Positions 1 through 20,812 of a stretch of 41,785 nt of DNA are shown here, piece after piece. The DNA is from Flavobacteriales bacterium (GTDB taxonomy: Bacteria > Bacteroidota > Bacteroidia > Flavobacteriales_F > PHOS-HE28). Position 1 is the first letter of the stretch. The number at the start of each line of letters is the position of its first letter. Made by a program: the position numbers and the translations under genes. Location: contig JABWBQ010000025.1 of assembly GCA_013360395.1 (NCBI GenBank), forward strand, positions 1-41,785. The letters are read 5' to 3'. The notes beneath the pieces are model-generated. The model ran no database searches. It saw nothing but the letters and a program-made list of their open reading frames with translations, and was not told the DNA's origin.

Positions 1-486
1 GTCATCGCAGGCCGTACCGGGCAGCGCAGGTCCACCGGCCACGCCCAGGCAGTCGATGGCCTGACCGACGCAGTTGCAGTTGTTGTCCCAGGTGTCGTTG
101 CCGGTGTTGGCGTTGCCGTCGTCGCAAGCGGATCCCGGCAGGGCCGTACCACCAGCGATGCCTAGACAGTCGATGGTCTGGCCGACGCAGTTGCAGCTGT
201 TGTCCCAGGTGTCGTTGCCGGTGGCGGCATCACCGTCGTCGCAGGCCGTACCCGGCAGGTCAGTACCACCGGCCACGCCCAAGCAGTCAATGGTCTGACC
301 GACGCAGTTGCAGCTGTTGTCCCAGGTGTCGTTGCCGGTGTTGGCGTTGCCGTCATCGCAGGCCGTACCCGGCAGCGCAGTACCACCGGCCACACCGAGG
401 CAGTCGATGGTCTGGCCGACGCAGTTGCAGGTGGCGTCCAACTGGTCATTGGCGGTATTGGCCTGGCCGTCATCGCACGGCGAACC
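1..486 (-). repeat. 117-bp tandem coding repeat (39 residues per unit)
   Basis: The marker gtc(a/g)tcgca recurs at 1, 118, 235, 352 and 469, an exact 117-bp period with near-identical units. Each unit encodes CDDG-NANTGND-TWDN-CNCVGQ-IDCLGVAGG-LPG. The last unit (469-486) diverges into the upstream sequence. The array continues past the left edge, so its copy number is unknown. Confidence 0.95.
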
Positions 487-3400
487 CACCTGGCCGATCA
501 CGGTGGGGCAGGAGTCGCATCCATCGGGAACGCCGTCGGTATCGTCATCGATCAGGTCATTGTGGCCCGGGCAGATGTCGTTGCAATCCGCGACTCCGTC
601 GCCGTCCCCATCGTCGTCAGCCACACCACAGCCGCATTGGCCAGGATCGTGCTTCAGCGGGTCGGAAGGACACAGGTCGCCGTCGTTCGGGACGTAGCCG
701 GTCGGGGCCACGCAGGCTGGTACACCTGTGCCAGGGTCTCCGTAGCTGTCGCCGTCCGCATCGGCATACCAGGTCACCATGTTGTCCTCGGTCACGATAA
801 CCGAGGCACTGTCGTTGAGGCATGGTGCGTTGCCGGGAACGATGTAGGTGTAGATGCCGCTGTCGTGGACGGCGGGGTCGTAGGTCCCGCTCATGGCCCC
901 GAGGGGGCCGGTCCAGGTGCCACCGGTCGCTGCACCCGGGCCCAGCAGTGCGAACAGGTCCGTCGGACCGGCATTCTCGCAAACGGTAAGCGCCGCATCC
1001 GTTCCGGCTTCGGAGGCGGCCTCGATCAGCAGGCCCACGGTCGTGCTTTGCGGGCAGGGGCCGGCCATGGTATAGGTGATGCTGTGCGAACCGAGGGGGG
1101 CGGCCTGTATGTCGATCACACCGGTGGACGGATCGATCGCCATGCCCAGGGACGCGGAACTGAAAAGACCGCCCACCGGTGCGGTCACCGTGGGAGCGAT
1201 CGCCGCCGCCGTGGCGCAGACCGCCGCCGTGCCGTAGCTCAATACGGGTGCGGGGGCGGGCTGAACGTCGATGGTGAACGAGCAGGAGAGACTGTCCGGA
1301 CCACTGGCCACCGTGTAGGTGATCGTGGTCGATCCGATGGTTATCTGGCTGCCGCTGGCAGGCCCGCTGTGCCAGAGCACGGCCGTGCAGATGTCCGAAT
1401 ACACCGGTTCGTCCCAGGTGACGGCAGCACCGCAACGGCCCGGCAGGGCCATCACGCTGATGTTCGACGGACAGGGCCCCAGGGTGGGGGGGGTGTCATC
1501 CACCACCCGCACCATGAATGCACAAGAACCGGTGTTGCCGTCGGCATCCGTGGCGGTGTAGATCACGGTGGAATCACCGACGGGCCACGCACCGTCCGTG
1601 GCGTTCGAGGTCCAGGTCACCGATCCGCAGTCATCCAGCACGGCCAGCGGTGCGGGCAGCGTTACCTGGCCAAGGCAGCCCGCGTCAGCCGGGATCAAGA
1701 GCGTGTCCGGACAGGTGATCTGTGGCCCTGCGGTATCGACCACCACCACTTGGTCCGAGTTGGTGGAGATGTTCCCCGCGGCATCGGTGATCGTCATCGT
1801 GGCCGTGAAGGATCCGCTCACCGTGGTGCCGGGAGGCGGGTCCTGTACCACGGTGAACGCACTGCAATCCGAGAAGGTGATGCTGTCCACCAGGTTCGGC
1901 ATCACCGCCGCGCAGCCGGCTCCGGCGGGAAGTATCACCGGGTCGGACAACGGGCAGTAGAAGGTGACCGGTGCAGCGTCGACGACGTGGACCGCCAGGG
2001 TGCACGTGCTCATGTTCCCGCCGAGGTCGAGCGCGGTGTAGTGCACCACGGAGTCGCCCACGGGCCACATACCGTCGGTGGCGTCCATCGTCCAGGTCAC
2101 CGTACTGCAAGTGTCCAGCAGGATCTGCGGTGCGGGCAGCGATACGGGCCCGAGGCAGCTGGCATCAGCCGCGACCACCAGCGTGTCCGGGCAGATGATC
2201 GTCGGTGCGATGTTATCGACCACCTGCACAGACCAGGTGCAGACGCTCGTGTTGCCCGCGCCGTCCGTCACCGTGTCGGCGAACTGGTGTGTGCCGGGCC
2301 CGAGCAACAGCAGCATCCCCGCGTCGGCCATGAAGGCCGAGGTGGCGAACACCAACGGGGAGGTGCTCAGCACCATCGCACCACCGGGCAATACGGTGAT
2401 CTGCGTGCTGCTCAGCTCGGCCGCGTTGCAATTGTCCGTGTAGGTGATGACCGGCACGGTGTACGGTACCAGGCATTCGGTGACGGGCAGATCGATCACG
2501 GTGACCGAAGGCGGGCAGGTCGCCGTGGGCGGAACGGTGTCCAGGACGCTCACCGTGTCGATGGAGCTCAGTGCGATGCCGCAATCGCCGCCGTCGACCA
2601 CTGCGCGGAACTGCACGCTTCCGTTGAGACCGCTCCAGGGTTGCGATGTAGAGGTGTTGGCAATGACCGTCCAGGTGACGCCGCCATCATCGCTCCGCTC
2701 CCAGCGCAGCACCGGGCCCGAATGACCGGTCAGCATCAACATGCCGGCATCCGTGGGGCAGAAGGCGCCGCCGCCGCTCACGGTGCCGCCCACGGGTGCC
2801 GGGATCACGGTCACCACCCGCGAGGTGCTGTACGTACAGCTGCCTTGCACCACGGTGTAGGTGATCGGGAAGCTGCCCGGCCCGGTGGGGCTGAAGATGC
2901 CGGTAGCCGTGACGTACGGCCCGCCGCTCCACAAACCGCCGGCCGCCGTGCTGCCCAGGTAGCGCACCGCATCGACGAGGAACGCGCCATAGGTGGCTGA
3001 GGTGTGGCGTTGCAGCCGCAGATAGCGCACGTCGGCACCCACCGTGTGGAACAGGCTGCTCCAGGACCCGGAGGAGGTCTGGTACTGCGAGGCTGCGCTC
3101 CAGGTCACCCCGTCCATCGAGGTCTGGACGTACATCCGCGCCTGCACCAGGTTGGTCTGGCTGCGCCAGGTCAGGGTCAGGACCTCCCCTGCGGACAGGG
3201 TGTCGCCCAGGTCCAGGGTAAGGGCGGCACCGGGCGAGGCGAACAAGGCTCCCGCACCATCAGGTGCGCCCACGGCCTGTTCCGCCGCGGTGATGCCGGT
3301 GGCGATCAGGGCCGAATCCGCGTAAGCCACCAGGTAGGCATTGAGGTCCACCGCCGGCACGCCCTCACAGAAAGGGCCCGGCTGCGCGAAGCGGGCCGGG

Positions 3401-4857
3401 TTGTTGGCGGCGTTCGACCATCCGGGATCGGTGAAGCCCGCCACGAAGAGATTCTCGCTGCTGCCCCCGGGATGGACCATGGAGCCGAGCACCAGCGAGG
3501 TCTCGTACTTCCCGCCCGCCACGAAGTCGCCCTGCACCGTGGTGGCCATCGCCATCACCATCTCATCCTGGTCCTCCACCTCCCGCTCCATCCAGACCGG
3601 GGTGCCGTTCGAGCTGAACCGGGCCACCATCACGTCCGGGTCATCGTCCCCGGTGATCACGGTGCCCTGGTCGGTGGTCACGGTCCCTTCCAGGGCCCCG
3701 CCCACGTAGGGCTGCTTGTTGCGGCCGATGGTGATGTCGTACCCGATGGCGCCGTGCGGTTCGTTGCTCGACGCCGTGCGTACCCACGCGGTGTTGCCGC
3801 TCGCGGGGTCCAGTGCGGCCAGGAAGAAGTAGTCGTGCACCCCGCCCACTGTACGCTGCACCCCGCCCGGAAAGGTGGAGCCGTCGTGCGTGTGGCCGGT
3901 GATGTACACCGCCTCGCAGCTCACGGCCACTCCGTTGCACTCCGAGGCCGCATCACCGGGGTTGTCGATCAGTTCGGACCAGAGGACCGAACCCCCCGCG
4001 CTGACGGCCGAGATGTAGAGGGCATTGGGGTTGGTGGTGTTCACTGTCGTGCTGAAGGTGCCGCCCTGGTTCATCCAACTGAAGGCCGACCCCGTGGTCT
4101 CTCCCGTGACATACACCACCGTGCCGTTGGTGGCGATGCGTTCGCTGAGGATGTCGCCCGGGGAGATGGCCGTCTTCGACCAGCCGAGCGTGCCACCCAG
4201 GCTGTAAGCGTTCAGAAAGGCATAGGCCTGACCATAGTACAGGCCTGTGGCCGAAGGGATCCCGGTCAAGCCGGTCGCATGCGTGAATGTGCCGTACGCG
4301 ACCACCATACCGCCCGCGAAGCACACGCCGGTGCCTTCGTCGTCCTGGGTCCCCCCCATGGTACGTACCCACTGAAAGACACCATTGGGGTCGTACAGCG
4401 CCACGAAGGCATCATGCCCGCCGACGGAGGAGATGCCCAGGTTGGCCGTCCAGCCGCTCAGGTGGCCGGTCACGGCCACCATCCCGGAAGGGGACACGTC
4501 CACCCCAAAGGCGCCATCGTCCCAGTTGCTGCCGAGACCCTTGCTCCACAACACCGCGCCCGAGGCGTTCAGCTTGGCCAGGAAGGCATCGGGAGTTCCG
4601 TTCACCGAGGCGGGCAACCCGAACGGCGCCCCGACGACCGTGGCGCTCTGGTACACGCCGACCACATAGATGGCACCGCTGGCCTGGTCCACGGCGATGT
4701 CGCGCACGAACTCGATGTTCCCATCGTCCACGGCATGCGCCCAAGTCCAATCGGGACCCTGGGCCAGCACGGCGGGACCGTGCCCCAAGGCCAGAAGGCC
4801 GATGATCAACGGCGCGCGTCGCGCCCATTCTTCCAAGTGCCGGAGAGTGTCGGCCAT
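1..4857 (-). CDS. Giant secreted multidomain protein with MopE/TSP3-like repeats (3' end outside window)
   Basis: At least 1619 residues; the stop codon lies left of the window. The ATG at 4857 is followed by a short charged segment and a hydrophobic stretch ending near ALAQG, which looks like a signal peptide. Visible regions in order: about residues 25-470, propeller-like repeats resembling SBBP repeats (recurring GxxYVxGxT and WSK-type strands); about 505-635, a discoidin-like beta sandwich; about 700-1200, Ig/HYR-like domains, several opening with a CP motif and closing on a VVD boundary; about 1360-1455, TSP3-like acidic loops (WYADADGD, DDDGDGDGVADCND); from about 1458, a 39-residue repeat with CDDG, TGNDTWDN and CNCVGQ. 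These are features of Bacteroidota surface or extracellular proteins. Calcium binding and T9SS export are inferred; the sorting domain would lie outside the window. No enzymatic motif was seen. Confidence 0.85.
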   Translation of the reverse strand, partial: MADTLRHLEEWARRAPLIIGLLALGHGPAVLAQGPDWTWAHAVDDGNIEFVRDIAVDQASGAIYVVGVYQSATVVGAPFGLPASVNGTPDAFLAKLNASGAVLWSKGLGSNWDDGAFGVDVSPSGMVAVTGHLSGWTANLGISSVGGHDAFVALYDPNGVFQWVRTMGGTQDDEGTGVCFAGGMVVAYGTFTHATGLTGIPSATGLYYGQAYAFLNAYSLGGTLGWSKTAISPGDILSERIATNGTVVYVTGETTGSAFSWMNQGGTFSTTVNTTNPNALYISAVSAGGSVLWSELIDNPGDAASECNGVAVSCEAVYITGHTHDGSTFPGGVQRTVGGVHDYFFLAALDPASGNTAWVRTASSNEPHGAIGYDITIGRNKQPYVGGALEGTVTTDQGTVITGDDDPDVMVARFSSNGTPVWMEREVEDQDEMVMAMATTVQGDFVAGGKYETSLVLGSMVHPGGSSENLFVAGFTDPGWSNAANNPARFAQPGPFCEGVPAVDLNAYLVAYADSALIATGITAAEQAVGAPDGAGALFASPGAALTLDLGDTLSAGEVLTLTWRSQTNLVQARMYVQTSMDGVTWSAASQYQTSSGSWSSLFHTVGADVRYLRLQRHTSATYGAFLVDAVRYLGSTAAGGLWSGGPYVTATGIFSPTGPGSFPITYTVVQGSCTYSTSRVVTVIPAPVGGTVSGGGAFCPTDAGMLMLTGHSGPVLRWERSDDGGVTWTVIANTSTSQPWSGLNGSVQFRAVVDGGDCGIALSSIDTVSVLDTVPPTATCPPSVTVIDLPVTECLVPYTVPVITYTDNCNAAELSSTQITVLPGGAMVLSTSPLVFATSAFMADAGMLLLLGPGTHQFADTVTDGAGNTSVCTWSVQVVDNIAPTIICPDTLVVAADASCLGPVSLPAPQILLDTCSTVTWTMDATDGMWPVGDSVVHYTALDLGGNMSTCTLAVHVVDAAPVTFYCPLSDPVILPAGAGCAAVMPNLVDSITFSDCSAFTVVQDPPPGTTVSGSFTATMTITDAAGNISTNSDQVVVVDTAGPQITCPDTLLIPADAGCLGQVTLPAPLAVLDDCGSVTWTSNATDGAWPVGDSTVIYTATDADGNTGSCAFMVRVVDDTPPTLGPCPSNISVMALPGRCGAAVTWDEPVYSDICTAVLWHSGPASGSQITIGSTTITYTVASGPDSLSCSFTIDVQPAPAPVLSYGTAAVCATAAAIAPTVTAPVGGLFSSASLGMAIDPSTGVIDIQAAPLGSHSITYTMAGPCPQSTTVGLLIEAASEAGTDAALTVCENAGPTDLFALLGPGAATGGTWTGPLGAMSGTYDPAVHDSGIYTYIVPGNAPCLNDSASVIVTEDNMVTWYADADGDSYGDPGTGVPACVAPTGYVPNDGDLCPSDPLKHDPGQCGCGVADDDGDGDGVADCNDICPGHNDLIDDDTDGVPDGCDSCPTVIGQVGSPCDDGQANTANDQLDATCNCVGQTIDCLGVAGGTALPGTACDDGNANTGNDTWDNSCNCVGQTIDCLGVAGGTDLPGTACDDGDAATGNDTWDNSCNCVGQTIDCLGIAGGTALPGSACDDGNANTGNDTWDNNCNCVGQAIDCLGVAGGPALPGTACDD

Positions 4858-5004: not shown

Positions 5005-8000
5005 TCAGGGAAGCTGGGCGTTCCGCACCGCCGAGGGCACGGCTCCGCCCACGGCCAGCAGAATGGGATCCCGGTCGTTGTTCGGGCCGGTGTACTTCGC
5101 CACACCGTCCAAGGTGATGTCCGTGAGGTGGTATCCCGGCAGGGTGGCCGTGGGTACCGACCCCCCGATCGCCACCAGGATCAGGTCGCGGTCATTGGCG
5201 CCTCCGGCATACTTCACCTGCCCGTTGCCGTTCGCATCCCCCGCCCAAAGGACCCGCACCCCGGCGATGTCGCGCAGGGCATTGCTGCCATACGTCGCCG
5301 TGGCGGGCAGGTCGAAGCGGACCTCGGCGGCGACCCCGGGTTGCAAGGTGCGCGTGGTGCCCGTCATCACCGGCAGATGGTTCCGGTGGCGGAGCGCGAT
5401 GTGGTACTCCCCGGTCGGAACGTAGAGATGCACGGGCGAGGTGCCGTCCAGGTCCACCACGTCGCCATCGCGTTGCAGCAGGCAGCTCCTTGTCGCCAGC
5501 ACGGTCGCCGGGTTGGTGGCCGACCGCACTTCCAGGAACACCCAGTCCACGATGGCCTCGGGCCCCGTGACGGAGAGGACGGCCGGAGCGATGGCCTCAC
5601 CACCGCCCTGGGCCTGGTGGGTGAAGCCCAACGCCGTGTACGGTTCGGTCAAGGGGACCAGCCCGGCGTTGCGCATGCCGTCGGCCATCATGTTGGGCAG
5701 CGGACCATAAGGCCCGCCCAGGAAGGCTTTCACCAGCAGCTGCACCGTGGTCCCCGCGCATTGGCAGGCGTTGTCCAACAGGTCGTTCGTCGTGTACGGG
5801 TCGCCGTCGTCGCAGGAGGCACCGGGATAGCTGGCGCCGTCGCCGTCGTTGCAGTCCGTGCCGTCGGCCACCATGCCGGGCGGGGCTTCACACGCCATCA
5901 CCAGCGTACCGGGATCGCCGCGACCGTCACCGTCCGCATCGGCATACCACGCCGTGGTGGTGCAGGCCCGGTGCACGTTCAGGGAGCGGCCTGGGAAGCC
6001 CTGGGCCTGGGCGAACCCACCACCGATCAACAGCAGGTCGTCCGTGCCCAGCAGGCCCAGCACCGGGCCGGAGCCCAGCGCCGGATCGAACGGCGCCAAT
6101 GCACCGGTGGCGGGCATCAGGGCGGCTGCGCCGTGGCGCGCCTGCCCGTCCACCTGGGTGAAGGGTCCGCCGATGAACACCTGGGACCCCTGCACGACGA
6201 GCGCCGACACGGCTGCATCGGCCGGGGCCGCCTCGAACAGCGTGTCCACCACGCCCGTTTGTGCATGCGCACGGGCCACGTGCGTGGCCGGCACGCCGTT
6301 GAGGGTGCTGAACTGGCCCCCGACCAGCAAGGTGCTGTCCGTGCGGTGCAGCGCACGGCAGATGCCCGCCGGGTCCAGGTCGAAGAGCACCGGCAAGGCC
6401 GCGCCGCTGGTGCGGTCAAGCACGGCCACCCCACGCCGACCGGCGCCGCCGATCGTGTTGAAGGAACCACCGGCATGCACTTCCTGGCCATGCACGGCCA
6501 GCGCCAATACAGGTCCGTCCGGTGCCGGGTCCCAGGTCGTCGCCGCATCCGAAGCCGGGTCCAGCAGCGCCAGGCCGTTGCGCGCGGCACCGCCCACCTG
6601 GGTGAAGGTCCCGGCGACGAAGAGACCGGTGCTGTCGGCCCGGAGCAGGTCCACGGGCCCGTCGGCCGTCGGGTTCCACGCATCGAGCGCCAGCGACACC
6701 GCGTCGAACGACAGCAGCCGCTGCCGTGGGGTGGTGAAGGCCCCTCCGGCGAACCAGCGCCCACCCCGGTAGGCCAGGGCGTGCACGGCCGCATCCGTCC
6801 CCAGCACGGGTTGTTGCAGTTTCCCGGCACCGGTGCCCAGGTCCAGCAAGGCCAGGTTGTTCACCGACCGACCGCCGCAACTGGTGAAGAGGCCACCGGT
6901 GAACAGACCTCCCGGCGACACGGCCAGGACGGTCGCCCAGTTCTCGTACCGCACATCCAGGGGGTCCAGGGCGCTGGTGACCGTGTTGTACACTGCGAGC
7001 CGCCATCGGGCCTGGCCTGCGGCGAACTTGAAGTTGCCGCCGACGAACAAGCGGGTGCCATCCGCGGAAAGGGCCATGGAGAGCACCGGGCCGGTGGGGG
7101 GCAGCGGTTGTTGGGGCAGCAAGGCTCCGGTGTTGCGGTCCACCGTGGCCAGCCGCGTGGCGGGTTGGCCTTGCACGGCCGTGAACGATCCACCGATGTG
7201 GATGCGGTCCGGGGCTATGGCCACCCTCAGCACGCCGCCGGGCGGGGCGGTCACCTGCGGGTCCCACGCCAGCAATGCACCGGCGGTGGTCACGGCGGCA
7301 CAGCCGTTCCGCGGCGAGCCATCGATGCTCGTGAAAGGGCCGGTCATCACCAAGGTGTCGCCCGACGCCCACAGGCCGTCAACATGATGCGAGGCTTGGG
7401 GGGCCCAGCTGCGCATGTCCCCGGTGGGCAGCCCGACCGCCATCAACCCCGCTCGCGTGTACAGCGTTCCCTGCACGGTGACCGCACCGATCACACCGCC
7501 TACGTACAGCGTGTCACCGACCCGGCAGAGCCTTCGGTAGGTGTTCCCCGGTGCGTTGGACGCACCCTGCCAGAACGGGGTCAGTGCCCCGGAGGCGGTG
7601 TCCACGGCCGCCAGGCGCGACCGAAGGCTGCCGTTCACCAGGCCGAATTGTCCTGCCAGGTATATCGTTGCACCAACGCGCAGCAGGTCGAGCACCGGTC
7701 CGCTCGCGGTTGGCGCCCAGGCCCCCACCGTGCCGTCGGCCAGGATGTGGGCCAGGCCGGACCGCAACGAATCGCCCACCCGGGTGAACGACCCGCCGAT
7801 GAACCAACCGCCGGCCCCATCGCTCACCGCAGTGTTCACCACCCCGTTGATCCGCGGCCGGTCGGTCCGCACCGCTCCAGTCCCCAGGTCGATCTCCGCA
7901 CCGTGAGGGTTGTTGGGCCCAACATAGGTGAAGGTGCCGCCCAGGGCCACGGTGCCCGAGGCCGTGTCCACGGCCATGGTGCGCACGGTGCCGTCGGTGA

Positions 8001-8088
8001 TCCACCAGGCGGGGCGTGGTTCGGTGTACTGCGAGCGGACCGGGGCGCCCAAAGCGGCGACCGCAAGGAGGGCGGTGATCGTTCTCAT
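5005..8088 (-). CDS. Secreted beta-propeller protein with MopE-like motif and duplicated dockerin-like C-terminus
   Basis: 1027 residues. The ATG at 8088 is chosen because it begins a clear signal peptide (MRTITALLAVAALGAPVRS) and avoids overlap with the divergent gene at 8177. Residues about 25-700 are repeats of the pattern GGxFT-VxG-xRxGLAxLD-xTGAL-W-P, resembling delta-60 (DUF5122) propeller repeats. Residues about 712-776 carry an acidic MopE-like segment (WYADADGDGRGDPGT, CNDGD, CDDGDPYTTNDLLDNAC) related to the repeat in the neighbouring giant protein. Residues 780-945 look like a beta-sandwich. Residues 950-1027 contain two copies of a D-x-NG/LDG-x-x-KY-x-G-xNDRD-xIL-xxGG-xVP unit, ending in QLP. 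Export is certain from the signal peptide. The T9SS route and calcium binding are inferred. No catalytic motif was seen. Confidence 0.85.
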   Translation of the reverse strand: MRTITALLAVAALGAPVRSQYTEPRPAWWITDGTVRTMAVDTASGTVALGGTFTYVGPNNPHGAEIDLGTGAVRTDRPRINGVVNTAVSDGAGGWFIGGSFTRVGDSLRSGLAHILADGTVGAWAPTASGPVLDLLRVGATIYLAGQFGLVNGSLRSRLAAVDTASGALTPFWQGASNAPGNTYRRLCRVGDTLYVGGVIGAVTVQGTLYTRAGLMAVGLPTGDMRSWAPQASHHVDGLWASGDTLVMTGPFTSIDGSPRNGCAAVTTAGALLAWDPQVTAPPGGVLRVAIAPDRIHIGGSFTAVQGQPATRLATVDRNTGALLPQQPLPPTGPVLSMALSADGTRLFVGGNFKFAAGQARWRLAVYNTVTSALDPLDVRYENWATVLAVSPGGLFTGGLFTSCGGRSVNNLALLDLGTGAGKLQQPVLGTDAAVHALAYRGGRWFAGGAFTTPRQRLLSFDAVSLALDAWNPTADGPVDLLRADSTGLFVAGTFTQVGGAARNGLALLDPASDAATTWDPAPDGPVLALAVHGQEVHAGGSFNTIGGAGRRGVAVLDRTSGAALPVLFDLDPAGICRALHRTDSTLLVGGQFSTLNGVPATHVARAHAQTGVVDTLFEAAPADAAVSALVVQGSQVFIGGPFTQVDGQARHGAAALMPATGALAPFDPALGSGPVLGLLGTDDLLLIGGGFAQAQGFPGRSLNVHRACTTTAWYADADGDGRGDPGTLVMACEAPPGMVADGTDCNDGDGASYPGASCDDGDPYTTNDLLDNACQCAGTTVQLLVKAFLGGPYGPLPNMMADGMRNAGLVPLTEPYTALGFTHQAQGGGEAIAPAVLSVTGPEAIVDWVFLEVRSATNPATVLATRSCLLQRDGDVVDLDGTSPVHLYVPTGEYHIALRHRNHLPVMTGTTRTLQPGVAAEVRFDLPATATYGSNALRDIAGVRVLWAGDANGNGQVKYAGGANDRDLILVAIGGSVPTATLPGYHLTDITLDGVAKYTGPNNDRDPILLAVGGAVPSAVRNAQLP
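5008..5241 (-). repeat. Duplicated dockerin-like C-terminal module
   Basis: The last 78 residues of the propeller protein are two related units of about 40 residues. Unit 1 has DANGNGQVKYAGGANDRD; unit 2 has TLDGVAKYTGPNNDRD. Each is followed by (L/P)IL(L/V)A(I/V)GG-(S/A)VP. The D-x-N-G-N-G loop resembles dockerin or EF-hand calcium loops, but the conserved KY-G-NDRD part is not a standard dockerin helix. Confidence 0.7.
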
Positions 8089-8108
8089 GACCAGGACCGT
8101 TGGGGTGC

Positions 8109-8116
8109 TCAAGGTA
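8109..8116 (-). promoter_or_regulatory. Putative -7 element (TACCTTGA) for the propeller gene
   Basis: TACCTTGA on the minus strand resembles the Bacteroidota -7 consensus TAnnTTTG. It ends 20 nt before the ATG at 8088. No convincing -33 TTTG was seen. It shares an 88-bp divergent region with the S46 gene. Confidence 0.4.
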
Positions 8117-8150
8117 GCGGATCCATCCCATTGGCGAAGGCGGACAGTCC

Positions 8151-8158
8151 TACCTTGC
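8151..8158 (+). promoter_or_regulatory. Putative -7 element (TACCTTGC) for the S46 peptidase
   Basis: TACCTTGC ends 18 nt before the ATG at 8177. A TTGG at 8131-8134, 16 nt upstream, could serve as a poor -33 element. Confidence 0.4.
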
Positions 8159-8176
8159 CGACCTGGACCCACGACC

Positions 8177-10375
8177 ATGAACCGACCGTTCCGGACCGCG
8201 CTCTTCCTGCTGCTGCTGCCCCTCTTCACCTCGGCCCACGAGGGCATGTGGCTGCCCACCGTGCTGGGCAGCATCCAGGATCGCATGCAGGCCGAAGGGC
8301 TGAAGCTCACCGCCGAGGACATCTATAGCGTCAACAATGGCAGCCTCAAGGACGCCATCGTGCTCTTCGGCGGGGGGTGCACCGCCGAGGTGATCTCCGC
8401 CGAAGGCCTCATTCTCACCAACCACCACTGCGGCTTCGGCGCCATCCAGGAGCACAGCACCGTGGAGCGGGACCTGCTGAAGAACGGCTTCTGGGCGATG
8501 GACCGCTCGCAGGAGCTGCGCAACGCGGGCCTCACCGCCACCTTCATCATCCGGATGGAGGACGTGACGGACCGCATGCTGCAGGCCGTGCCGGCCGGTG
8601 CCGATGAGGCGGCGCGGCAGCAGGCGCTCGGCGCCCGTGGGCAGGAGTTGGCGCGCGAGGCCACGACCGGAAGCCACCACCAGGCCGTGGTGCGGGCCTT
8701 CAACTACGGTCTGCAGTACATCCTCATCGTCAGCGAGGTCTTCCGCGATGTGCGCCTGGTGGGCGCCCCGCCGGGGGCCATCGGCAACTTCGGCGGCGAC
8801 ACGGACAACTGGATGTGGCCGCGGCACACGGGCGACTTCAGCGTTTTCCGGATCTATGCCGACGCCGATGGCCGCCCCGCCGATCCCGCACCGACCAACG
8901 TGCCCTTCAAGCCACGCCACGTGCTGCCCATCAGCATGCAGGGCGTCAAGGAGGGCGATTTCGCCATGATCTTCGGGTTCCCGGGCAACACCCAACGTTA
9001 CCTGCACAGCAGTGCCGTGGCCTACATCACCACCGTGGGCGACCCGCTCCGCATCCGCATGCGCCGGGCAAGCCTGGCGGTGATCGACGGGGCCATGCTC
9101 GCCAGCGACCGCACACGCATCGCCTACGCCGACAAACAGAAGGGCATCAGCAATGCGTACAAGAAATGGATCGGCGAGCTGCGCGGCCTCGAGGAGCTGC
9201 GCACCGTGGACCGCAAGCGGGAACTGGAGGCCACCTATGCCGCGCGTGCAAGGGCGGCAGGGCGCAGCGACCTGCTCGCGGTGCTCGATTCGCTGGAACG
9301 CTGCTACGCCGGGTTCACCGCCCTGGCGAAGGCGCGCGACCTCCACGTGGAGTTCTTCCTGGTGGGGGCCGAGCTTTTCCGCTTCGCCCAGTCCTTCCAC
9401 CAGCTGGCCGATGCCGGCGGCAGGGCCGCGTTGGAGAAGGAGGGCAAACTGAAGCAGGAGATGGAGCGCCTCCGCGCCCGGGCCGCCGCCTTTCACAAGG
9501 ACTTCGATCCTGCCGTGGACCAGCGCGTGCTGCTGGCCCAGTATCCGATCTACCGCGAACATCTTGACCCCGTGCTCGGCCCCGACCTCAGCGACCTGGA
9601 CACACGCTTCAAGGACGCCCGTGCCTGGGCCGAACACGTTTACACGCGCTCCCTCTTCGCCGATGCGTCGGCCTTGGACGCGATCCTCGCCTCCGGCAAT
9701 GCCAAGGCCCTGCGCCGCCTGGACAAGGATCCGGCACTGGCCTTCGCCAGGCGGCTTTCCGAAGCCTATGCCACCCGGGTGAAGCCCGCCTTCGATGCCC
9801 TCGGCCAGCGCATCCAGGTGCACATGCGCGGTTACGTGGGCGGCCTCATCACCCTGTTCCCGGAAAAGGAACACTGGCCCGACGCCAACAGCACCCTGCG
9901 GCTCAGCTACGGCAAGGTGGAAGGCAGCCGCCCGCGGGACGGCATGACCTACGAGCCCTTCACGCATCTGGGCGGAGTGATGGAGAAGTACCGCCCCGGC
10001 GATGCGGAGTTCGAAGTGCCCGCCCGGCTGCGCGAGCTGTACGCCGCCCACGACTTCGGCGCCTATGGCAACACCGACGGCACCATGCCGGTGTGTTTCA
10101 CCTCCAGCCTGCACACCACCGGAGGCAACAGCGGCAGCCCGGTCCTCAACGGCAGGGGCGAGCTCATCGGCATCAACTTCGACCGCAGTTGGGAGAGCAC
10201 CATGAGCGACATCCAGTTCGATCCTGCCAAGTGCCGCAACATCAGCACGGACATCCGCTATGTGCTGTTCGTGATCGACAAGGTGTGCGGGGCCGGTCAC
10301 CTGGTGCAGGAGATGCAGCTGGCCTATCCGCCGAAGGCCCCGGGGTTCCTCATCGACCTGCCGATCCACCGCTGA
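8177..10375 (+). CDS. S46-family dipeptidyl-peptidase (DPP7/DPP11-like)
   Basis: 732 residues, the usual S46 length. The ATG at 8177 opens a signal peptide (MNRPFRTALFLLLLPLFTSA) followed by HEGMWLP, a conserved S46 start of the mature chain. The catalytic His lies in TNHHCGFGAIQ (about His84), the Asp in GGDTDNWMWPRHTGDF (residues 208-220), and the Ser in TTGGNSGSP (Ser652). A mostly helical region (about 300-560) separates the two halves, as in S46 exopeptidases that remove dipeptides from the N-termini of peptides in the periplasm. Eighteen residues after the Ser is Arg670 in FDRSW; in the family this position is Arg in Asp/Glu-specific DPP11 and Gly in DPP7, so an acidic-residue preference is inferred. 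Only 3 bp separate its stop from the next gene. Confidence 0.95.
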   Translation: MNRPFRTALFLLLLPLFTSAHEGMWLPTVLGSIQDRMQAEGLKLTAEDIYSVNNGSLKDAIVLFGGGCTAEVISAEGLILTNHHCGFGAIQEHSTVERDLLKNGFWAMDRSQELRNAGLTATFIIRMEDVTDRMLQAVPAGADEAARQQALGARGQELAREATTGSHHQAVVRAFNYGLQYILIVSEVFRDVRLVGAPPGAIGNFGGDTDNWMWPRHTGDFSVFRIYADADGRPADPAPTNVPFKPRHVLPISMQGVKEGDFAMIFGFPGNTQRYLHSSAVAYITTVGDPLRIRMRRASLAVIDGAMLASDRTRIAYADKQKGISNAYKKWIGELRGLEELRTVDRKRELEATYAARARAAGRSDLLAVLDSLERCYAGFTALAKARDLHVEFFLVGAELFRFAQSFHQLADAGGRAALEKEGKLKQEMERLRARAAAFHKDFDPAVDQRVLLAQYPIYREHLDPVLGPDLSDLDTRFKDARAWAEHVYTRSLFADASALDAILASGNAKALRRLDKDPALAFARRLSEAYATRVKPAFDALGQRIQVHMRGYVGGLITLFPEKEHWPDANSTLRLSYGKVEGSRPRDGMTYEPFTHLGGVMEKYRPGDAEFEVPARLRELYAAHDFGAYGNTDGTMPVCFTSSLHTTGGNSGSPVLNGRGELIGINFDRSWESTMSDIQFDPAKCRNISTDIRYVLFVIDKVCGAGHLVQEMQLAYPPKAPGFLIDLPIHR

Positions 10376-16031: not shown

Positions 16032-19000
16032 ATGCACCGTAAACTGCTGGCCCTGGCCGCTTTGGCAACGCTCTCCTGGCAGGAGGCGAAAGCCACCCAC
16101 GTATCCGGAGGGGAGATCATCTACGAATGCCTGGGCAACGGGGAGTACCAATTCACGCTGATCGTCTATCGCGACTGCTTCGGCACCACGCTGGGCACCT
16201 CCTACGACCTGACCTTGGAGAGCCCCTGCGGCAACCAGACCGTGACGGTGACGCAGGAGAGCTTCACCGAGGTCAGCCAGCTCTGCCCCGAGGAATTGCC
16301 CAACAGCACCTGTAACGGGGGCAACCTGCCCGGCTTGGAGCAGTACATCTTCACGGGCACGGCCACGGTACCGCCCTGCGACTTCTGGACCGTGTCCTGG
16401 TCGCTGTGCTGCCGCAACGACGCCATCGTCAACCTTCAGCAGCCCGGCAACGTGGAGGGGTACATCGAGACCACCTTCAACAATGCGGATTATCCCTGCG
16501 AGGATTCGCCGGTGTTCACCAGCGCGCCCATTCCCTATGTGTGCCTCAACCAGCCGGTGATCTACAGCTACGGCGTGTACGACCCCAACGGCGACAGCCT
16601 CAGCTATGCCCTCAGCCCGGCGCTTGACATGGGCGGTGTGCCCATCGGCTACGTGTTCCCCTATTCGCCCAACGAGCCCATCACCGGCCTCACCCTCGAC
16701 CCGGTCACCGGCCTGCTCACCTTCACGCCGAACGCGGTGGGCAACTTCGTGGTGGTGGTGATCGTGACCCAGTACGATGAGGACGGCAACGTGATCGGCA
16801 CGGTAATGCGCGACATGCAGTTCGTGGTGATCCCCTGCACCAACCAGGCGCCCGACCCCAACTATTGCATCACCAACTTCTCGGGCACGGCCGTGCAGGT
16901 GAGCTGTTCGGGGATCGAACTGTGCGAGTCGGATAACTTCTGCTTCGATGTGGTGATCAGCGACCCGGACCTGGGCGACACCCTCGCTGTGGAGAGCAAC
17001 GTACAGCAGAACCTGCCGGGCTCCACCATTTCGTGGACGGGCACCAACCCGGTGACCGTATCCGTGTGCTGGACCGCCCAGCCGGGCAACAACGGCTTCT
17101 ATCCGTTCACCATCACCGTGGAGGACCAGAACTGCCCGATCAGCGCGTTCCAGACTTACGTCTTCAACACGAACGTGCTGCAACGCACCTCGGCCGGCCC
17201 GGACCAGACGATCTGCGGTCCGCAGGTGGCCGAGATCGAGGCCGAAGGCGGGGCCAACTTCGTGTGGTCCATCCTGCCGGGTGGCGACCCGATCACTCCG
17301 CAGAACTTCATCTGCCTCGATCCGCCGTTCTGCTCGGAGGTCATCGCCGACCCCAACAGCACCACCACCTATGTGGTCGTCAGCGACCTGGCCGGCTCCT
17401 GCATCAATTCCGATACGGTCACCGTGTTCGTGGTGAGCGACTTCACCTTCGCCATCACCCAGAGCGACGATACGCTGTGCCTCGGTGAGACGGCCCAGAT
17501 CAACGTGACCACCAACCCGGGTGTGCCGGGCTACACCTTTGAATGGAGCCCTTCGCTCGGGCTCTCGGACGACGATATCGCCAACCCCATCGCGGGCTAC
17601 AGCCAGCCGGGCACCTACGAGTACACCGTGGAGGTCACCAGCCCCGACGGTTGTGTGAAGCAGGATTCGAGCCTGTCGCTGGTGGTGCTTCCCGGCTTCG
17701 TGCCGGACTTCACCGTCACGGTGGCCGATGATTCCTTCTGCGAAGGGCAGGGCACCACCTTCACCGTGGAGATCGACAACTCCCCGCCCACGTACTGCGG
17801 CCAGAACTTCGGCGGATGCACCTCGGGCATCGTGGCCGACTTCGAGCTGGGCACCGGCACTGTGCAGGGCACCACCACCTCGTGGCCCGCGCCCTTCGGC
17901 AACTGGTACAACAGCGCCAAGCACCAAGTGCTCATCCGCGCCAGCGAACTGGTCGCCCTGGGCTTCACGGGCGGTACCATCAACGAGCTGGCCCTCAACG
18001 TGGCGGCGGTCAACGGCCTCTCGACCTATCCGGACTGGCAGATCCACATGGGTTGCACCACCCTGGATTCGCTGAACGTCGACCAGGGCTTCGTCACCGG
18101 CCTCTTCCCGGTGTTCGGCCCCACCGATGTGCCCATCACCGTCGGCTGGAACACCTTCGCCCTGAACCCGGGCTTCAACTGGGACGGCGTGTCCAACATC
18201 ATCGTGGAGTTCTGCTTCAGCAACTACCCGAACGGCTTCAGCCAGAACTCGCCCACGCTGGCCACCAACACTGGATACACCTCGGTGCTCTATCACTACA
18301 CGGATGGGGCCAACCTGTGCGACACGATCCCGCCGGCCTTCTTCAACCAGGGTGAGAGCACCGAGCGCCCCAACATGCGCTTCCGCGTCTGCGCCGGGGT
18401 GAACGAGGACCTGCTCAGCTACACCTGGTCGCCCACCGTGGGCCTTTCCGACCCGAACGGCGCCGTGACCGATGTGGTGCCCGTGACCTCCCCGGCCACG
18501 TACACGGTGACCGTGGGCGACCCCGGTCTGGGCTGCTACGGGACGGCATCGGTGACCACCACCTGGGACCCGCCGGCCGACGTGAGCTTCGTGCCCATGC
18601 CCAACGAGGGTGTGGCGCCGCTGGATGTGTTCTTCGACAACACTTCCTCGGGCAACGTGGTGTCCTTCACCTGGAACTTCGGCGACACCACCGGCACCTC
18701 CACCGAGTTCGAGCCTTCGTACGTCTTCAACGAGCCCGGCGTGTACGTCATCACCCTCAACGGGGTGAGCGACCAGGGCTGCACCGGCTTCTACCAGGAC
18801 ACGGTGATCGTGCTGCCCGACCCCATCGTGGTCATCCCCAACGTGTTCAGCCCCAACGGCGACGGCAACAACGATGCCTTCGAGTATGCCGACCTGCGCG
18901 GTTGGAAGAGCGTGGAAATGACGATCTACGACCGGTGGGGCACCAAGGTGCATACCGCGCCGCAGACCACGAACAACAAGGTGATCTGGAAGCCGGCCTC

Positions 19001-19097
19001 CAACATCTCGGAGGGCACCTACTATTTCGTGTTCGTCGGAACGGGCAACGACGGTTCCGAGGTGAAACATCAAGGCCACATCACCCTGCTGCGGTGA
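16032..19097 (+). CDS. Large secreted protein with PKD-like and gliding-motility-type C-terminal domain (T9SS substrate)
   Basis: 1021 residues. The signal peptide MHRKLLALAALATLSWQEAKA is followed by THVSGGEIIYECLGNGEYQF, a start common among Bacteroidota surface proteins. Residues about 21-290 are a Cys-containing beta region (CCRNDAIVNL, GDSLSYALSPAL). About 385-560 are Ig-like repeats (SAGPDQTICG; SDTVTVFVV). About 587-788 is a distinct module with many aromatic residues (PFGNWYNSAKHQ, FNWDGVSNIIVEFCFSNY). About 850-925 is a PKD domain (FTWNFGDTTGTS). About 935-1021 is the CHU_C/gliding-motility C-terminal domain, with VFSPNGDGNNDAFEY, MTIYDRWGTKVH and SEGTYYFVF. That domain type is a T9SS sorting signal, so cell-surface attachment or release is expected. 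No catalytic motif is visible; an adhesin-like role is inferred. A strong terminator follows. Confidence 0.92.
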   Translation: MHRKLLALAALATLSWQEAKATHVSGGEIIYECLGNGEYQFTLIVYRDCFGTTLGTSYDLTLESPCGNQTVTVTQESFTEVSQLCPEELPNSTCNGGNLPGLEQYIFTGTATVPPCDFWTVSWSLCCRNDAIVNLQQPGNVEGYIETTFNNADYPCEDSPVFTSAPIPYVCLNQPVIYSYGVYDPNGDSLSYALSPALDMGGVPIGYVFPYSPNEPITGLTLDPVTGLLTFTPNAVGNFVVVVIVTQYDEDGNVIGTVMRDMQFVVIPCTNQAPDPNYCITNFSGTAVQVSCSGIELCESDNFCFDVVISDPDLGDTLAVESNVQQNLPGSTISWTGTNPVTVSVCWTAQPGNNGFYPFTITVEDQNCPISAFQTYVFNTNVLQRTSAGPDQTICGPQVAEIEAEGGANFVWSILPGGDPITPQNFICLDPPFCSEVIADPNSTTTYVVVSDLAGSCINSDTVTVFVVSDFTFAITQSDDTLCLGETAQINVTTNPGVPGYTFEWSPSLGLSDDDIANPIAGYSQPGTYEYTVEVTSPDGCVKQDSSLSLVVLPGFVPDFTVTVADDSFCEGQGTTFTVEIDNSPPTYCGQNFGGCTSGIVADFELGTGTVQGTTTSWPAPFGNWYNSAKHQVLIRASELVALGFTGGTINELALNVAAVNGLSTYPDWQIHMGCTTLDSLNVDQGFVTGLFPVFGPTDVPITVGWNTFALNPGFNWDGVSNIIVEFCFSNYPNGFSQNSPTLATNTGYTSVLYHYTDGANLCDTIPPAFFNQGESTERPNMRFRVCAGVNEDLLSYTWSPTVGLSDPNGAVTDVVPVTSPATYTVTVGDPGLGCYGTASVTTTWDPPADVSFVPMPNEGVAPLDVFFDNTSSGNVVSFTWNFGDTTGTSTEFEPSYVFNEPGVYVITLNGVSDQGCTGFYQDTVIVLPDPIVVIPNVFSPNGDGNNDAFEYADLRGWKSVEMTIYDRWGTKVHTAPQTTNNKVIWKPASNISEGTYYFVFVGTGNDGSEVKHQGHITLLR

Positions 19098-19180: not shown

Positions 19181-20812
19181 ATGCTGCACAAGTTCCCCGC
19201 CCGGGTCATGGCCTTCGCCGTGATGTTGCTGGCCGTGGTTCGTTGGGGACCCGGGCTCCAGGCCCAGGATGACGGGGAACAGGCCGCCATGCCCACCGTG
19301 ACCGCATTGCCCTTCGTGGAGGCCGAGGCCCTCGCCATGGACAGTGCAGGGCACCTCCTTGGCCTGCCGCCGGCCTACGGCATGGTGCTTACCGTGGACC
19401 CTGCTTCGCGTTCGACCGACCTGCGCAGCGCCCGGATCTGCTCCGAAGGAGCGTTGGCCGTGGAGCCCTTCCTGGTGGATGTTCGCCTCGCCCCCGGGGA
19501 GCGCTTGCTCCTGCGGGATGACCGGAACATGGCGGTCCTTTGGAGCATCACGGCGCAGGAGGTGGCGGCCAACGGCCGGGTGGCCCTGCCGCCGGCGCCC
19601 GGCCCCTGCTGCGTCGTCGAGATCGTCGGCGCGCACGCGGGACTTCCGCAGGGGGCGTTCACCGTGGCCGAATTGGGCCACACCTACCGCGGAGAAGCCG
19701 CGTGGAAGGCCGACGCCTGCGAGGTGGATGTGAACTGCACCGAGGGCCAGGCCTGGACCGACCAGCGCGATGCCGTGGTGCGGGTGGGCGTGCGTGCCAA
19801 CGGGGCGCTGCTTTGGTGCACCGGCACCCTGATGAACAACACCGCACAGGACTGCCGGCCCTTCATTCTCACGGCCCTGCACTGCGGCATCAACTCCACG
19901 CCATCGGACCTGCAGGACTACAAGTTCTACTTCGGCTACCAGCGCACTGGTTGCGGCACCGGACCGGCCGATCTCAGCAAGGTCCTCACCGGTTGCCACC
20001 GCCGGGCGGACAGCAACGACGGCGGCCTCAACGGTTCGGACTTCTTGTTACTGGAGGCCTACAACGCGGTGCCCCCCGGTTTCGATCCTTACTGGGCCGG
20101 CTGGGATGCGTCCGGGGCGCCGTGCAACAGCGGTGTCACCATTCATCACCCCACCGGGAGCGAGAAGAAGGTGAGCACCTTCGCCATGAACCTGCTCACT
20201 TCCCAGTGGATCGCCGGCGGACCGTACAGCCACTGGTACGTGAAGTGGACCGGCACCGCCAACGGGCACGGCGTCACCGAGCCCGGATCATCGGGCGCAC
20301 CGCTGATCGACGGCGCGGGCCGTGTGATCGGCACACTGAGCGGGGGCACCAGCTGCTGCGTGGAAGATGGCTGCAACCTGCCGGGCTCCGGACCCAACGC
20401 GCCGGATTACTACGGGAAGATGAGCTTCCACTGGACACAGAACCCGAACACCGCGGCCCAGAAGCTCAAAGCATGGCTTGATCCGTTGGACCTCGGCGTA
20501 CCGGTGCTGGACGGGGCGCGTTCACCGTGCGCCATCGGCCTGGCCGAGCAATGGGATCGGGAGCCGCGGCTCTTCCCGGTGCCCGCCTCCGATCGTCTGG
20601 TGGTGGAGTGGGGGACCGCGGAGGATGTCGTGGTGACGCTCCACGCCATGGACGGTCGCTTGGTGCGGCGGGTCCCGGCACGCGGACGCGCCGAGCTGAC
20701 CGTGGCGGACCTGCCCGCGGGCAGCTACGCGCTGGTCCTCACCCGGCCCGATGGCGCGCGGTGGTCGCGCCGCGTGGTGCTGCTCGGTGCATCAACGGAA
20801 AAGGCGCCCTGA
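19181..20812 (+). CDS. Secreted lysyl-endopeptidase-like serine protease with C-terminal sorting domain
   Basis: 543 residues from the ATG at 19181; an ATG at 19208 is an alternative. The first start gives a signal peptide with a basic n-region (MLHKFPARVMAFAVMLLAVV, then GPGLQAQ). Residues about 35-190 are a pro-region. The S1-type fold has His234 in LTALHCG, Asp287 in NGSDFLLLEA and Ser371 in EPGSSGAPLID. The surrounding Cys residues (CTGTL, DCRPFI, CCVEDGC) resemble Achromobacter lysyl endopeptidase relatives; cleavage after Lys is inferred only from that resemblance. The last about 85 residues (LFPVPASDRLVVEW, HAMDGRLVRRV, LPAGSYALVL) match a T9SS type-A sorting domain, so export to the surface or medium is likely. 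Its stop codon sits in the loop of a hairpin. Confidence 0.88.
   Translation: MLHKFPARVMAFAVMLLAVVRWGPGLQAQDDGEQAAMPTVTALPFVEAEALAMDSAGHLLGLPPAYGMVLTVDPASRSTDLRSARICSEGALAVEPFLVDVRLAPGERLLLRDDRNMAVLWSITAQEVAANGRVALPPAPGPCCVVEIVGAHAGLPQGAFTVAELGHTYRGEAAWKADACEVDVNCTEGQAWTDQRDAVVRVGVRANGALLWCTGTLMNNTAQDCRPFILTALHCGINSTPSDLQDYKFYFGYQRTGCGTGPADLSKVLTGCHRRADSNDGGLNGSDFLLLEAYNAVPPGFDPYWAGWDASGAPCNSGVTIHHPTGSEKKVSTFAMNLLTSQWIAGGPYSHWYVKWTGTANGHGVTEPGSSGAPLIDGAGRVIGTLSGGTSCCVEDGCNLPGSGPNAPDYYGKMSFHWTQNPNTAAQKLKAWLDPLDLGVPVLDGARSPCAIGLAEQWDREPRLFPVPASDRLVVEWGTAEDVVVTLHAMDGRLVRRVPARGRAELTVADLPAGSYALVLTRPDGARWSRRVVLLGASTEKAP

Follow-up and report, generated by a model that had tools for sequence, protein, structure and literature searches.

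An X-dockerin-like C-terminal module with extended NDRD loops on secreted Bacteroidota proteins, and its pairing with genes for type A-CTD proteins

Many secreted proteins of a Flavobacteriales bacterium and of other Bacteroidota end in a C-terminal module whose last part is, on sequence grounds, kin of the dockerins via intermediate sequences. Computation delineates the family, its C-terminal place, this kinship, the predicted fold of the whole module and the pairing of its gene with a second gene. By the curated model the module falls outside Dockerin_1; it is a new dockerin variant that would work above all like the X-dockerins. The reading to which we lean sees in the tail an X-dockerin-type plug whose socket is a partner displayed by the T9SS.

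The module ends a protein encoded in the window, by which the whole analysed stretch of 41,785 nucleotides is meant. A sequence-only reading had described two repeat units at 5008-5241 closing a propeller protein and had called them dockerin-like. Both units are seen on the minus strand, at 5134-5241 and 5008-5133, and a DUF5122 match supports the propeller. The extent of the unit had to be redrawn: the two repeats are real, yet 5008-5241 covers the tail only, that is the last 78 residues of a C-terminal module of about 240 residues to which a beta domain also belongs, followed by the two EF-hand-like repeats. According to alignments and the structural model, the conserved unit starts about 165 residues (about 500 bases) upstream of the tail in the gene, near 5745. 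The parts of the gene are:

5005..8088, minus strand: gene of the tail protein, 1027 residues, in an open frame of 5005-8322; the start ATG at 8086-8088 is proposed by eye from the signal peptide
8032..8088, minus strand: Sec signal peptide MRTITALLAVAALGAPVRS, read by eye, before a Gln and without a lipobox Cys
5950..8031, minus strand: beta-propeller part with DUF5122 repeats (PF17164, E 3e-15), outer limits approximate
5752..5949 (about), minus strand: acidic linker rich in Cys and Asp, from the sequence by eye
5251..5745, minus strand: the module's beta domain, X-module-like and marked by the conserved signatures DWV-ELR and RHRNHL, from alignments, the model and the X-dockerin match; limits approximate
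5134..5241, minus strand: repeat 1, EF-hand/dockerin-like, starting GDANGNGQVKYAGGANDRDLILVAIGGSVPT, from sequence, alignments and model
5185..5238, minus strand: predicted metal loop 1 in extended form, model residues D170 to D187, with NDRD at 5185-5196
5008..5133, minus strand: repeat 2, EF-hand/dockerin-like, the end of the protein, from sequence, alignments and model
5068..5121, minus strand: predicted metal loop 2 in extended form, model residues D209 to D226, with NDRD at 5068-5079
5008..5016, minus strand: the extreme C-terminal Gln-Leu-Pro, kept in related tails
5005-5007, minus strand: stop codon TGA, directly after repeat 2

Repeat 2 reads TDITLDGVAKYTGPNNDRDPILLAVGGAVPS...QLP, its final stretch being TDITLDGVAKYTGPNNDRDPILLAVGGAVPSAVRNAQLP. 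The linker at 5752-5949, which we take to resemble TSP3/MopE repeats, is visible by eye as the acidic stretch that had been given this name; the Pfam scan of the tail protein matched no family there. Elsewhere in the window, other proteins on the plus strand carry one type B (18834-19094) and one type A (20570-20758) T9SS sorting domain, and positions 1-4857 of the minus strand encode a large secreted-looking protein, truncated where the contig ends, whose Cys-rich repeats GTACDDGNANTGNDTWDNSCNCVGQTIDCLGVAGG are nearly identical.

The sequence-only reading had made its proposal depend on other proteins with the same tail, and such proteins were found in number. A 94-residue tail query located 27 places in the genome of the window (G000), of which 23 carry both repeats up to the end of the open frame, one of these (L011) being cut upstream at a contig edge; two further places are cut short in repeat 2, one is a half copy with repeat 2 only at the frame end and one is a remnant with a stop. 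The 23 full tails share 23 invariant columns, and 22 of them end in Q-x-P, the remaining one in AMP (the alignments of this genome were made without four of the 27 places, L024-L027, and the long one also without L011 on account of the contig edge). A chance repeat was ruled out, the conservation being too high. A scan of genome contigs returned at least 549 related stretches, the best 79 of which all come from Flavobacteriales or Bacteroidetes/Bacteroidota bacteria, and in each of these 79 kept loci the frame closes with Q-L/I/V/M-P-stop and nothing after it. Matches number 4-48 per genome and occur in 45/45 genomes of the order. At E <= 1e-4 the module is present in 52 of 395 sampled Bacteroidota genomes, a figure that, like all those for the phylum, is a presence count only because at most seven candidates were scored per genome. 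On one contig of the window's genome (G000:C115:47498-50435, L023-L025) three module ends follow each other in succession, two of which stop in repeat 2 just past NDR; one of the shortened ends closes with EQVPGP and may represent decay, an assembly error or a shorter form.

The proteins that bear the module in this genome are varied. Nineteen of the 23 were scanned at full length against Pfam, which revealed metallopeptidases of the M36, M43 and M12 types, one trypsin-like peptidase, three glucose/sorbosone dehydrogenases, a purple acid phosphatase, propellers of the FG-GAP/ASPIC, sortilin-like and DUF5122 kinds, a beta helix and PKD domains; two of the 19 gave no Pfam match. A Sec signal peptide was read by eye in 20 of 22 bearers, many with Gln at +1 and apparently without a lipobox. 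For the two exceptions, one start was not located and the other lies outside the open frame.

The metal loops were compared in 80 sequences of the wider set. Loop positions 1 and 5 hold an oxygen-type residue in both loops of all 80, and position 3 does so in 80/80 cases in loop 2 and in 46/80 in loop 1, where the ligand is absent in the other 34. N-D-R is identical in both repeats of all 80 sequences and is always followed by D or E. Within one protein, repeats 1 and 2 are 0.69 alike, against 0.64 and 0.66 for the same repeat between proteins (99 of 102 modules; three could not be cut into two repeats). This higher likeness within proteins fits a module that may be symmetric and under common selection. 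A six-residue insertion (consensus YxGxxN), peculiar to this subtype, probably separates loop positions 9 and 10; the position-12 ligand would thereby be replaced by the final D of NDRD, with D-R at positions 10-11. The latter are given as specificity determinants of cellulosomal dockerins in the available text of one paper (PMC8063739). NDRD may be read as part of a dockerin F-hand with an extended loop, and calcium binding by the tail repeats would be expected from their residues.

Direct searches do not place the module among dockerins. The window module and 22 modules of the same genome retrieved nothing credible in Pfam, NCBIfam or PDB sequence searches, and Dockerin type I (PF00404) matched neither the window protein nor any of the 22. 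The difference from cellulosomal dockerins that had been noticed at the outset holds, both in the NDRD signature and in the missing PF00404 match of the window version. Two Pfam rows were set aside as chance, Remorin_N (5/22 members, best 0.0023) and Pro_racemase (best 5e-4, below its cut-off).

The connection is made by intermediates. Distant homologues across Bacteroidota retain the beta domain, and many of them end, at the same C-terminal place, in canonical dockerin repeats (GDxNxDGxVxxxD, twice). In the wider alignment, from which L154 was omitted for an internal stop, 26 of 28 homologues have at most a few residues after the repeats and the other two run about 27-30 residues further; by our own count 19 of the 28 have V/L/I/M-P within three residues of the end. 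A profile was made of 14 wider tails picked for their canonical repeats. Searched against the PDB, it matched dockerins (2vn5 at E 4.2e-6); Pfam Dockerin_1 (PF00404) matches nine of the 14 picked tails at E <= 0.1, with a best value of 2.1e-5; and hhalign aligned the NDRD tail to the picked tails over 47 columns with a probability of 95.7 and E 1e-8. Loop forms of an intermediate kind, VNYIGGTNDREAIL and VKYSGSSNDRSPIL, occur in the wider alignment. In the tail of the relative L160 (G064:C11) the insertion at this place of the EF loop is far longer, VRAKQGTVGVFPNLTVVPSDRD, as though inserts of differing length could be accommodated.

Structure prediction, which the sequence-only reading had proposed as a check, yielded a confident AlphaFold model of the whole module (246 residues, pLDDT 96.9, pTM 0.92), in which residues 185 and 225 open the helices and short strands occupy 176-178 and 215-217. 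Type II X-dockerins fill all eight top places among its structural matches (Z 8.6-9.9, rmsd 3.5-4.0 A, 142-148 aligned residues, 8-15% identity), and the next-best row has Z 5.5. In the predicted model the beta domain stands directly before the dockerin-like repeats and the overall fold is as in a type II X-dockerin. The margin of the match is moderate, because according to the aligner's note a best Z of 7-8 is typical of models that match nothing clearly, so that Z 9.9 stands about 2 above that level. Foldseek with the whole module gave nothing under E 0.001; its X-dockerin rows range from E 0.03 to 0.9 and occupy the top two places with weak values of 0.03 and 0.04. A model of the tail by itself (pLDDT 81.7) had no structural match of Z >= 2 among 69 chains, which speaks against the dockerin reading; the fold claim therefore rests on the whole module. 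The dockerin-like character of the tail is accordingly supported by two lines, homology through intermediates and the predicted fold of the complete module.

A C-terminal place on exported proteins is also what the sorting domains of the T9SS have, of which types A, B and C are described in the available text of one source (PMC10202324). The genome of the window has SprA and, over the cut-offs, 102 type A and 30 type B matches with one place common to both. None of them lies at the 27 tail places, both kinds of domain being found on other proteins. The NCBIfam sorting domains (TIGR04183, TIGR04131) are likewise missing from the window protein, 22 modules of this genome and 28 wider modules. 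NCBIfam, which we take to include a ChiA-type C-terminal model, gave no match to this type C domain in the same proteins. The one hint is Por_Secre_tail (PF18962) in one of ten wider modules, at E 0.089 and below the cut-off. A match to a known T9SS sorting family, which would have spoken against the first proposal, was therefore not obtained over any cut-off. SprA is found in all 52 module genomes, and the module in none of the 92 SprA-lacking genomes among the 395 Bacteroidota (p 3e-7, not independent by descent). Since 165 of 171 sampled genera have SprA, this co-occurrence is weak and was rejected as proof of export by the T9SS.

These observations bear on a different explanation, that the module is a new T9SS C-terminal sorting class in addition to A, B and C, which the translocon or a shuttle would recognise and which the EF-hands would only stabilise. 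We judge it rather unlikely, even if several facts would suit it: the module ends the protein in 23 tails of this genome and in 79/79 close loci (the best 79 of at least 549), a Sec signal is read by eye at the start of its bearers, a lipobox is apparently missing from them and neither a type A nor a type B domain coincides with the tail, the genome uses the known sorting domains on the scale just given, and to this may be added the descent-dependent SprA distribution and the sub-threshold Por_Secre_tail row. It is opposed by the want of any NCBIfam sorting domain in the 22 and 28 modules, by the predicted fold and the homologues, which point to dockerins, and by the gene neighbourhood, where the usual companion gene encodes a further T9SS cargo instead of a PorP/SprF-like barrel. 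Genes for such barrels often accompany type B signals in F. johnsoniae, as stated in the available text of a further paper (PMC12618676).

The companion was looked for in 30 neighbourhoods of module genes from wider Bacteroidota, the first ten of which were chosen partly because cohesins lay near; counts refer to 29 loci from 28 genomes, L219 being left out for want of an intact module ORF. In 19 of the 29 an ORF with a type A CTD directly adjoins the module ORF on the same strand, 16 times downstream (binomial p 7e-13 against an assumed background of 10%). Seventeen of the 19 adjoining ORFs have 257-471 residues and the other two 227 and 741. Thirteen share an N-terminal beta domain, and 11 of these 13 seeded a profile of it (A10). 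This profile found the domain in 18 of the 395 genomes, 17 of which are module genomes and 14 of which had supplied seeds. Among the four non-seed genomes (G000, G190, G219 and G061) three carry the module, and the match in G061 has an internal stop. Five of nine non-seed matches adjoin a module match (G243:C18, G014:C45, G014:C63, G294:784441 and G219:C86) and four have none beside them.

Within the genus, the partner N-domain is present at E <= 0.01 in 39 of 44 genomes, with a single match, on C132 (open frame L273:1539-2582), in the genome of the window. Twenty genus regions were examined, three of them (G399:C45, G422:C173 and G000:C43) picked partly for known module genes; 19 contain the domain, and all 19 ORFs with it have a type A CTD. 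Three of the 15 best genus partner matches adjoin a module gene (G405, G435 and G412), and so do the three partly picked regions. A second copy in the genome of the window, on C43 (open frame L274:6803-8293), was found only in a local scan. There, at G000:C43:850-12300 (L274, L204, L194, L187), three module genes come after the partner ORF in the same orientation, the gaps along the run being about 27, 144 and 247 nt. Similar runs appear in the match lists of G435, G402 and G422. A cohesin identity of the partner N-domain was also considered and is not supported (hhalign probabilities 0.7 and 1.3); Pfam cohesin (PF00963) is missing from 20 members, and the best row against the PDB is a cohesin at E 0.16.

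The pairing could alternatively mean that the module protein binds the CTD partner already in the periplasm and leaves through the T9SS on a sorting signal lent in trans. The type A CTD on all 19 genus ORFs with the domain, the immediate adjacency in 19 of 29 wider loci and the lack of a CTD on the module proteins themselves agree with such a route. We nevertheless hold it to be improbable, as two partners face about 23 cargoes in the genome of the window and the loaded complex would have to pass SprA.

A cohesin-like partner, whose search had been proposed together with that for further tails, did not emerge in this lineage. PF00963 gave nothing over the cut-off in the genome of the window, a row at E 0.5 being rejected, and the cohesin profile gave nothing convincing in 44 genomes of the genus, where one row at 0.0068 with an internal stop was rejected as well. 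In the wider phylum, PF00963 exceeds its cut-off in 111 of 395 genomes. With E <= 0.001 as the limit it occurs in 33/52 module genomes versus 94/343 others (p 6e-7) and, among genomes with SprA, in 33/52 with the module versus 91/251 without (p 3e-4), both values ignoring descent. Cohesin domains lie inside the module ORF in four of the 29 neighbourhoods, and an ORF with a cohesin and a type A CTD lies near the module in three, all of them among the first ten; the cohesin profile for the neighbourhoods was built partly from those same domains. With PF00963 itself, two cohesins are recovered from the module ORF of G078, and the cohesin set of the neighbourhoods matches PDB cohesins at 1e-13. 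Clear cohesins are common in Bacteroidota also without the module (G377:C7, G259:C25 and G074:C7; L208-L210).

That the module would merely be a calcium-stabilised C-terminal cap against proteolysis, without a binding partner, is very doubtful: the great diversity of its bearers and the lack of a convincing cohesin in the genus would allow it, but cargoes of widely differing kinds keep NDR and RHRNHL unchanged or almost so, and in other Bacteroidota the module gene is linked to a T9SS type A gene and in some cases to a cohesin.

Docking as such, the identity of the partner and the route of the cargo across the outer membrane are what we infer for the favoured plug and socket. The tail would be the dockerin-like half of a C-terminal docking module of the X-module-dockerin type. 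Each repeat would be an F-hand, made of half a calcium loop (D-x-N-x-D-G-x-V), the six-residue insertion and D-R-D at the start of a single helix. The near-identical repeats would confer a two-fold symmetry, and the beta domain would support them in the manner of the X module of type II dockerins. Enzymes and propellers bearing the module would be exported by Sec, would pass the outer membrane and could then be plugged onto a few small surface proteins that combine a beta N-domain with a type A domain of the T9SS. Weighing against this reading are the tail model without a structural match, the lack of a cohesin over the cut-off in the genome of the window and the missing ligand at position 3 of loop 1 in 34 of 80 sequences. 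A more specific version, in which the small partner with its new beta domain and type A signal displays the cargo and may also carry it out in trans via the T9SS, one protein's secretion signal thus serving others in a widespread and as yet unnamed plug-and-socket system of the Bacteroidota, is put forward as a tentative suggestion only.

T9SS cargoes are normally recognised by their type A, B or C domains, and here a further large class of secreted proteins (23) ends in a module unnamed by Pfam and NCBIfam. If the favoured reading is true, assembly of the cellulosome type reaches deep into Bacteroidota and beyond cellulose degraders, the holding of peptidases, dehydrogenases and propellers at the surface is explained, and a new tagging pair for surface display becomes available.

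Among known systems, the T9SS sorting domains of type A (TIGR04183/PF18962), type B (TIGR04131) and type C (ChiA-type) share with the module the C-terminal place, the Sec signal and T9SS hosts, but the module has EF-hand-like repeats and no match to them over cut-off. Dockerin type I (PF00404) is likewise a two-repeat EF-hand module at protein ends with internal symmetry, to which homologues of the module match weakly, whereas the window module has NDRD in place of the x-x-D end of the loop. Dockerins outside cellulosomes have reportedly been treated by Peer et al. in 2009. The literature matches listed (titles and abstract starts) contain no description of the module, the extended NDRD loop, the partner domain or the pairing, which is no proof of absence, subscription papers lying outside. 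In their available text, a genome survey of cellulosomes does not name Bacteroidota or Bacteroidetes (PMC11557425), nor does a review name Bacteroidota (PMC12484212). The general idea of T9SS-anchored docking has a precedent, because for Ca. Stygibacter (Cloacimonadota), which has dockerin-ended enzymes, anchoring of a cohesin protein to the cell through a T9SS-type CTD has been proposed (PMC8542988, available text). That system belongs to another phylum and has tandem classical cohesins, and the available text mentions neither an X-like domain nor an NDRD loop (PMC8542988). Compared with the X-dockerins of cellulosomes, the module is borne by some 23 proteins of varied kinds in a Gram-negative host with a T9SS, in whose genome no cohesin was found; compared with type II X-dockerins, it has a probable six-residue insertion in each loop and 246 modelled residues versus about 156. 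The type II X-dockerin dyads of cellulosomal scaffoldins (PDB 2b59, 3kcp, 4u3s, 5k39 and others) are likewise C-terminal and join a beta domain to two F-hand repeats, as the module would.
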